Assembly (NCBI GenBank): GCA_010909725.1
Contig: JAACMV010000011.1
Coordinates: 434,001-498,000 of the forward strand
Direction of reading: 5' to 3'
Origin: Picochlorum sp. 'celeri'
Taxonomy: Eukaryota; Chlorophyta; Trebouxiophyceae
DNA length: 64,000 nucleotides
Below, piece by piece: positions 10,224 through 11,184 of this stretch. Below the pieces are notes generated by a model that saw only the letters and a program-made list of their open reading frames with translations, ran no database searches and was not told where the DNA came from. Both the position numbers and the translations under genes were made by a program. The stretch's first letter is position 1. Each line of letters opens with the position of its first letter.

Positions 10224-10785
10224 CCACGTCTATCTTTGGACGTCTACCGCATCTAAGGGATTTATTTACATCTATTGTAATCTATTGCACCCTGCAGGGA
10301 AACAGCTGTTTCCACCTCAGATCGGCCAGAAATCCAATTTTGGCACTCGAAAACTTTGCAGGACAAGAAAAGGAGGGAAAATCCTGAAATCACGAAGAGT
10401 ACTCAAGCTTGAGCTCAGACTGCTTGGGCAGGAACTCAATGATATAGGTTCAGAACACGTGTGTGCGTTCTATCACTTTAGATGTTAGTACAAGTTACAA
10501 TAGTTACTTGCTTATATATCTTCGTTGACTATTATTGTCGTCGCAATGCTTATATACCTTGGCAACCATCATGAGTAAGTGGTTGTTCTAATTTAGATGA
10601 TTTAAGACGTAACAACATCAATGGATGGAAACGACCGTATGACTTGGGCCTAGAAACATTGGCTTCGTTCTCCGCGTATACTACACAATATTCGCTAAAT
10701 ATCATATCAGAAGACGTAGAATGCAACACAAATTAATAATATATTTATTGTAGTGAATATAATGCACTGTGGAGGGAGGAAATTC
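10224..10785. other. Non-coding stretch of the accessory island
   Basis: No convincing gene. A 173-residue open frame ending at 10488 overlaps the transposase relic out of frame and lacks recognisable domains. A short direct repeat, TTGCTTATATATCTT and ATGCTTATATACCTT, occurs near 10508 and 10547. The rest is AT-rich with stop codons in all frames. Confidence 0.4.
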
Positions 10786-10810
10786 CGTATAAGACCTCAC
10801 TTATGAGGTC
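10786..10810 (+). promoter_or_regulatory. TATA-like element and perfect inverted repeat upstream of the permuted tRNA
   Basis: GTATAAG (about 10787-10793) overlaps the start of a perfect 7-bp inverted repeat, GACCTCA at 10793-10799 and TGAGGTC at 10804-10810, with a 4-nt loop. It lies about 65-90 bp upstream of the tRNA 3'-half. A role in transcription of the tRNA is inferred from position only. Confidence 0.3.
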
Positions 10811-10875
10811 CTGGCTAAGGATCAGAGGCTTATTGACAATGGAAGAATTCCGCTTTTGTACTATTTCCCAGAATA

Positions 10876-11012
10876 TCCATATTCGAAAGAGCGCAGGTTC
10901 GAACCCTGTCACGATCATAATGAAATACTAAAAAGAATCGGAGTTTCGAAATCGACAGAAGCTTCCCATCAAAGCGATCGTGTGGCCGAGAGGTTAAGGC
11001 GTATGGTTCAGG
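10876..11012 (+). tRNA. Circularly permuted tRNA-Leu(CAG)
   Basis: The 3' half lies upstream of the 5' half. 10876-10917: base 38, anticodon-stem 3' side CCATA (10877-10881), an 11-nt variable arm with a GAAA loop, T arm (stem GCAGG/CCTGT, loop TTCGAAC, 10893-10909), acceptor 3' strand CACGATC (10910-10916) and discriminator A (10917). A 58-nt spacer follows (10918-10975). 10976-11012: acceptor 5' strand GATCGTG (10976-10982), TG, D arm GCC/GGC with GG in the loop, G26, anticodon-stem TATGG (11002-11006) and loop TTCAGG with anticodon CAG at 11009-11011. The acceptor pairs 7 of 7, the anticodon stem 5 of 5 and the T stem 5 of 5 with one G-U. The long variable arm and A73 fit leucine. The break falls at 37/38, the canonical tRNA intron site. 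The A box and B box are both present but in reversed order. Flanks TTCCC (10865-10869) and GGGAA (11011-11015) can pair to bring the ends together for splicing. Confidence 0.9.
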
Positions 11013-11036
11013 GAATTTTATTAAGGAAAGAGAAGC

Positions 11037-11041
11037 TTTTT
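11037..11041 (+). terminator. Pol III terminator (T5) after the permuted tRNA
   Basis: Five T residues lie 24 nt after the end of the 5' half, the first such run downstream, matching the RNA polymerase III termination signal. Confidence 0.65.
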
Positions 11042-11063: not shown

Positions 11064-11109
11064 CAATAAGTAGCGTACTTCCTTCCAGAAGGAAGTACAC
11101 CACTTATTG
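11064..11109 (+). repeat. Strong hairpin downstream of the tRNA gene
   Basis: Outer arms CAATAAGT (11064-11071) and ACTTATTG (11102-11109) are perfectly complementary. After a 3x3 internal loop, inner arms GTACTTCCTTC (11075-11085) and GAAGGAAGTAC (11088-11098) pair perfectly over 11 bp with a 2-nt loop. It could be a small mobile element relic or a structured RNA. Function is unknown. Confidence 0.6.
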
Positions 11110-11184
11110 CTTCCAGCTTTGTATGTTACTTTCACAAGTCGATACAGACATGCCTTCCATGGTATTACTGTACCACCGCCAACT

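Follow-up and report, generated by a model that had tools for sequence, protein, structure and literature searches.

A very probable circularly permuted tRNA-Leu(CAG) gene, one of 17 permuted tRNA loci found per haploid set in Picochlorum celeri

A locus in the green alga Picochlorum celeri is, with high confidence, a functioning tRNA-Leu(CAG) gene in circularly permuted form (type II, junction 37/38), in which the 3' half of the tRNA is encoded ahead of its 5' half on the same strand. It lies in a 64-kb stretch of contig 11 (C11:434001-498000; GC content, ∼46%), referred to here as the window, and positions are those of the window unless a contig is named. We class the locus as permuted because of the order of its halves, the cloverleaf that they form when re-joined, a splice-site-like motif at its ends, its T-runs, the matching allele, the lack of a normal-order copy in our searches, and 16 further loci of similar build. 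The genome comprises 27,412,692 bases in 30 paired contigs; the published P. celeri assembly is described as 27.43 Mbp in two sets of 15 scaffolds, with 46% GC (PMC7225527).

The 3' half (TCCATA...GATCA; tRNA positions 38 to 73) occupies 10876-10917 of the plus strand, and the 5' half (GATCGTG...TTCAGG; positions 1 to 37, with the anticodon CAG at 11009-11011) occupies 10976-11012, exactly the bases assigned to them in the first-pass annotation from which this analysis started. The split at 37/38 and the 58-nt spacer, both proposed there, were likewise verified in the sequence. The spacer (10918-10975, plus strand) links the 3' end of the acceptor stem to its 5' end and has a predicted hairpin at 10940-10965 but no TTTT. 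The B box, GGTTCGAACCC (10896-10906, plus strand), stands here upstream of the A box, TGGCCGAGAGG (10983-10993, plus strand). Thirty-three bases ahead of the 3' half (-33) is a GAAATTC-like sequence, AAGAATTCC (10843-10851, plus strand), a candidate external Pol III promoter element. The trailer (11013-11041, plus strand) holds two candidate Pol III terminators: the T5 run annotated earlier, found at 11037-11041, and a T4 run already at 11016-11019. A73 is followed by TAA; CCA is absent from the gene.

Re-joined, the two halves give a 79-nt cloverleaf with 7/7 acceptor, 3/3 D-stem, 5/5 anticodon-stem, and 5/5 T-stem pairs (one of them G-U), and the pairing previously given for the acceptor, anticodon, and T arms holds. 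The re-joined tRNA has U8, A14, G15-C48, G18G19, U33, the TTC loop, and A73, the leucine discriminator. ARAGORN labels it Leu(cag), and neither ARAGORN nor Rfam reports anything in the unpermuted window. A structural finder, built after other permuted genes had been seen and seeking the 37/38 junction only, returned exactly one match in the window, this locus, with a score of 42; 1,500 dinucleotide shuffles of the window (96 Mb) gave two matches of 42 or more, or ∼0.001 per window. The locus was also the sole window match of a covariance model made from in silico permuted tRNAs of the same genome, at 64.5 bits, a score that is partly a matter of construction, since the locus is 1 of the 13 training rows. 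CTG makes up 212 of the 11,580 codons in 23 long, mechanically found open reading frames of the window.

Two features of the surroundings were observed. A 302-bp segment upstream of the tRNA (10500-10801) is to all appearances a dispersed repeat, with 89% identity to sequence near 635 kb on C10 and C16 and partial repeats elsewhere. Downstream, at 11064-11160, is a hairpin with 22-nt arms plus a conserved tail, GCTTCCAGCTTT...GATACAGACATGCCTTC. The tail is also present, with another hairpin and at a similar distance, 3' of the permuted Leu(AAG) gene (C2/C22), where the loop of the hairpin is inverted between the C2 and C22 haplotypes; a relative lies downstream of the normal-order gene for Trp (L120 on C15).

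In the minimum-energy fold of 10860-11041, the permuted tRNA keeps its acceptor, T, and anticodon stems, with the D hairpin in a register other than that of the tRNA's own D stem. Its ends face each other as UUCCC-A-GAA-[UAU]-CCAUA and UAUGG-UUC-A-GGGAA, predicted to form the anticodon stem, a 3-nt bulge with U38 as its third base, and a helix between the leader and loop bases 32 to 34. On this fold and the leader-loop comparison given below, the 5' leader ends in UUCCC-A-GAA-UA (10865-10875, plus strand), and a cut is predicted at 10875/10876. The flanks TTCCC (10865-10869) and GGGAA (11011-11015), said in the first-pass annotation to pair, do so in the fold as well; GGGAA takes in G36 and G37, with which the 5' half ends. 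These two are paired in the outer helix instead of bulging out, so that the motif has a relaxed form at the 5' cut. The energy of the precursor fold was considered as a line of evidence and rejected (z = -0.12; 84 of 200 shuffles fold at least as well).

The pairing between leader and anticodon loop recurs among the permuted genes described below. Loop bases 32 to 35 pair with leader positions -3 to -6 at 50 of 64 positions in 16 genes; when the leaders were re-assigned among the genes 20,000 times, the mean was 35.5 and the highest value 48. Three or four of the four positions are paired in 14 of the 16; the poor fits are Ser(GCT), with one of four (four at a one-base shift), and Cys, with two of four. 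These ends resemble the relaxed motif reported for green algae (PMC3978253). Proteins of two kinds with a tRNA-intron endonuclease domain are encoded in the genome. One gene (L113) gives equal-scoring matches at seven places, on C9, C10, C12, C16, C21, C25, and C26; the other is a single allelic pair on C7/C24.

Motif scans of the genome identified 17 permuted loci per haploid set, representing 16 anticodons: Leu(CAG), Leu(AAG), Leu(TAA), Ser(GCT), Ser(AGA), Arg(CCT), Arg(TCT), Arg(TCG) (two loci), Val(AAC), Val(CAC), Thr(AGT), Thr(TGT), Ala(TGC), Ala(CGC), Tyr(GTA), and Cys(GCA). All 17 are split at 37/38, the junction to which the finder was restricted, and their spacers range from 11 to 128 nt. 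The only Cys and Tyr genes found in the scans are permuted. Normal-order genes account for 21 anticodons, 11 of them intron bearing; for three of the genes with an intron, Leu(CAA), Arg(CCG), and Arg(ACG), the ARAGORN labels differ, and anticodons were assigned from the finder and by eye, as was Ser(TGA) by eye alone, with 4/5 anticodon-stem pairs, the finder having chosen another register. Ala(AGC), Gly(GCC), Gly(CCC), Thr(CGT), Gln(CTG), Gln(TTG), His(GTG), Leu(TAG), and a second Met were not found in the motif scans. Because the scans are not exhaustive, the 16 permuted anticodons are a lower bound, and the permuted share may shift in either direction.

Alanine tRNAs are marked by G3-U70, tyrosine tRNAs by C1-G72, cysteine tRNAs by U73, serine tRNAs by G73, and leucine tRNAs by A73, and these identity features, which lay outside the search criteria, fit the permuted genes. 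An 836-nt query of 11 re-joined permuted tRNAs, with Val(CAC), Thr(TGT), and Ala(CGC) left out, gave 50 genomic matches at E ≤ 10, the longest of 53 nt; none of the 50 contained both halves of any one tRNA. The permuted Val(CAC) and Val(AAC) genes (L115 and L100) were seen to lie tail to tail, ∼250 bp apart, at C5:52586-53017.

The spacers were compared with their shuffles. They fold better (Fisher P = 1.6e-4, n = 16), but this is only a weak observation because the downstream controls (P = 0.007, n = 16) and the introns of conventional genes (P = 6e-4, n = 10) do so too; the value for upstream controls was 0.96 (n = 14). The 128-nt Arg(TCG) spacer folds far better than its shuffles (z = -4.35).

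We then considered how such loci might be expressed, including the very unlikely alternative that the halves are transcribed separately and joined in trans like the split tRNAs of some archaea, in which trans-splicing is known (PMC3978253). A run of four or more T's follows within 40 nt in the trailers of all 17 permuted loci, compared with 16% of random segments. None of the 17 spacers contains TTTT, which argues against separate transcripts, though ∼5% of random segment sets also lack it. Against joining in trans are also the shortest spacer, whose 11 nt leave little room for a second promoter, and the placement of the halves, which are always neighbors on one strand. In its favor is a GAAATTC-like element within 3 of the 17 spacers, those of both Arg(TCG) copies (L098 and L099) and of Thr(AGT) (L101), though not that of Leu(CAG). 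The occurrence of the element in these three spacers also rules out its restriction to sequence upstream of 3' halves.

Matches to the pattern [AG]A[AG]?AATTC are present at -60 to -15 in 10 of 15 permuted genes and 9 of 21 conventional ones, compared with ∼1% of background segments. The enrichment overstates that of a blind test because the pattern was chosen after the sequences had been viewed; the excess is still large. The count leaves out the two Arg(TCG) loci, for which the available upstream sequence was too short; in one of these copies, AAAAATTC stands upstream of the C17 allele. No clear TATA box was seen close to the Leu(CAG) locus. That the GAAATTC-like element is common to many permuted and normal genes suggests an external promoter, and we infer that it may carry much of the promoter function. 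The genome encodes a GTF3C1/TFC3-like protein. Its B-block domain would by itself be weak evidence, because the search with that family also passes the cutoff in 4 of 14 prokaryote controls, but the 1,593-amino-acid frame matches the GTF3C1 winged-helix family as well (5e-12). The conventional Asn (L005 and L006) and Phe (L021 and L024) genes are directly preceded by GGTCCCGGGTTCAAA, a T-arm/B-box-like sequence ending at -1, which might be a B box outside the gene or the remnant of a tandem tRNA.

We lean towards the view that permutation is a standard form of tRNA encoding in Picochlorum, with at least 16 of the 37 detected anticodons, including those of the only Cys and Tyr genes found, dependent on circularization by the splicing machinery, and with the arrangement made tolerable by a shared upstream promoter. 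The reversed A and B boxes would then be harmless because of the shared GAAATTC-like promoter, though a B-box-binding TFIIIC subunit is encoded.

Less likely still than joining in trans is that the Leu(CAG) locus is a dead, rearranged pseudogene or a repeat-borne fragment, with the functional tRNA-Leu(CAG) gene elsewhere or missing from the assembly. The first-pass annotation had named a conventional Leu(CAG) gene elsewhere, with the halves here untranscribed, as an observation that would tell against a permuted one, and it was sought with the re-joined sequence and with non-exhaustive motif scans. The re-joined Leu(CAG) query gave eight genomic matches at E ≤ 10, each to a single half; these are the two Leu(CAG) alleles and both alleles of the permuted AAG paralogue on C2/C22. 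An A-box scan allowing up to three mismatches gave 53 places, of which 42 were examined (30 loci with up to two mismatches and 12 regions with three); by position and letters, 8 of the other 11 are haplotype partners of examined places, and the last 3 lie close to the ends of contigs. Seventy-three places matched a class II T-arm motif at two mismatches or fewer. The 16 exact ones correspond to eight Leu/Ser loci on two haplotypes, five of the eight being permuted, and 3 of the 57 inexact ones were examined (L092, L093, and L094), one of which is the Cys gene. Two further A-box pattern scans gave 162 matches and 91, mostly chance places, from which selected places were examined. No conventional Leu(CAG) gene was found with the re-joined query or in the A-box and T-arm scans, over 42 of the 53 A-box places and, for the T-arm, the exact matches and 3 of the 57 inexact ones. 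Despite an A-box- or T-arm-like match, the finder reported no tRNA at L077 to L081, L083 to L088, L092, L094, L102, L116, L117, and L119. Leu(TAG), a possible reader of CUG by wobble, was not found in the non-exhaustive motif scans, and viral contigs contained no relative of the Leu(CAG) 5' half.

A decayed copy would be in keeping with tRNA-like A boxes without a detected T-arm near contig ends, with a motif-based search, and with a genome copy that may lack some sequence. Against it, the stems of the Leu(CAG) tRNA are all intact, and the C19 allele is identical across 901 bases. The halves of the Leu(AAG) paralogue differ from those of Leu(CAG) at three positions, of which two are in the anticodon loop. 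The same build is shared by 15 other anticodons, including those of the only Cys and Tyr genes found. The 37 spacer bases adjoining the 5' half differ from the paralogue at two (C22) or three (C2) positions. As for the contig-end sequences themselves, repeats (GAGTGTGGCCGAGCGGTTAAGACGTGTGG and variants) with a Leu-like A box and 5' half were seen ∼2 kb from many contig ends (for example, C3:1976, C4:1973, C22:1972, and C30:2002), with no T-arm within 400 bases by the criteria used.

Permuted order is present on both haplotypes for 14 of the 16 anticodons; Val(CAC) and Thr(TGT) are the other two, each seen on the second haplotype through its A box alone. It is scarcely conceivable that an assembly or sequencing artifact swapped the halves, for although the assembly was made from long reads without short-read polishing (PMC7225527) and the one-base insertion in the C17 Arg(TCG) allele may be a sequencing error, such an artifact is countered by the permuted order on both haplotypes, by spacers that differ between alleles in Ala and Leu(AAG), and by the 37/38 junction common to all 17 loci. 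The extra base of that C17 allele is in the 3' half, and the finder missed the allele. Taken as a whole, the earlier identification of a permuted tRNA-Leu(CAG) gene stands by sequence: it is intact on both haplotypes, with splice-site-like ends and a T-run downstream and none inside.

The Ala alleles show further differences. Paired changes distinguish the D stems of the two Ala(TGC) alleles and leave the stem closed. The D stem varies between the Ala(CGC) alleles as well, with three pairs retained on C16. For both genes (L103 and L107 for TGC; L105 and L106 for CGC), the D arm and the spacer diverge strongly from one haplotype to the other without loss of pairing in the stems, a divergence above what the genome heterozygosity, reported as 0.8% (PMC7225527), would suggest.

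For the permuted Leu(CAG) gene, we infer the transcription, the circle, and the acting enzymes as follows. RNA polymerase III would make a single transcript that runs from the leader through the 3' half, the spacer, and the 5' half into the trailer and stops at the T-runs. The ends of this RNA would form the splice-site motif of anticodon stem, 3-nt bulge, and leader helix with loop bases 32 to 34, and the bulge would be cut after its second base. By analogy with other algae (PMC3978253), maturation would proceed via a circular RNA intermediate, from which RNase P and tRNase Z would remove the 58-nt spacer at the acceptor end; CCA would be added. In other algae a circular RNA intermediate is already established, and a circle followed by RNase P and tRNase Z is the model published for them (PMC3978253).

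Cas9 editing has been reported in P. celeri, which grows fast. With many permuted genes, some apparently the sole genes for an amino acid, the promoter, the requirement for splicing, and the route through a circle would become open to deletion and swap tests. In such algae, much of the tRNA set can escape standard annotation. Permuted genes in Auxenochlorella were found because tRNAscan-SE had given an incomplete set (PMC12636532). The text consulted of the SENEW3 paper (PMC11092101) reports tRNAs from tRNAscan-SE 2.0 and does not contain the word "permuted," and the main texts of the BPE23 and P. renovo papers do not contain the word "tRNA." In a search that left most subscription papers outside its scope and returned two papers with both terms, no published report of permuted tRNA in Picochlorum was found. 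The genus is placed among the trebouxiophytes in PMC12636532 and in the Chlorophyceae in PMC7225527.

The permuted tRNA gene is a known kind of gene; the novelty, so far as checked, lies in the host and in the extent. Permuted tRNA genes are, as the first-pass annotation stated, already documented in Cyanidioschyzon, prasinophytes, and nucleomorphs (PMC3978253). That 2014 review lists 34 such genes in seven species, with a maximum of 11 in one species and spacers of 1 to 74 nt; it calls their origin and significance unclear and the reversed A and B boxes ill suited to TFIIIC (PMC3978253). If the 17 loci described here are what they seem, we know of no larger set of permuted tRNA genes, the number in Auxenochlorella not being part of the comparison.

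One case for comparison is Cyanidioschyzon merolae, with 11 permuted tRNA genes tabulated in 2014 (Soma 2007, via PMC3978253) against our 17 loci. There, too, the 3' half comes first, the ends are BHB-like, a T-stretch lies downstream, CCA is not encoded, and an upstream promoter has been proposed, and a permuted Leu(CAG) gene is present, with the same 37/38 junction and a 9-bp spacer (PMC3978253). C. merolae differs in also using junctions 20/21, 50/51, and 59/60, whereas all 17 loci here are at 37/38, the only junction sought; in its spacers, which are 7 to 74 nt compared with 11 to 128 nt; and in that homologues of TFC1 and TFC3 have not been identified in it (PMC3978253), whereas a GTF3C1/TFC3-like protein is encoded here. 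In the nucleomorphs of Bigelowiella natans and Amorphochlora amoebiformis, there are two permuted genes each, for Ser only; the permuted tRNA-Ser of B. natans is split at 37/38, as here, but has 5-bp spacers (PMC3978253 and PMC4494063). The green algae Ostreococcus and Micromonas resemble P. celeri in that nearly all of their junctions are at 37/38 and the hBH motif is relaxed (Maruyama 2010, via PMC3978253), but these prasinophytes have three to six genes per species, compared with 17 loci and 16 anticodons here (PMC3978253). Auxenochlorella UTEX 250-A is likewise a trebouxiophyte, vegetatively diploid, with a streamlined genome and permuted tRNA genes (PMC12636532).
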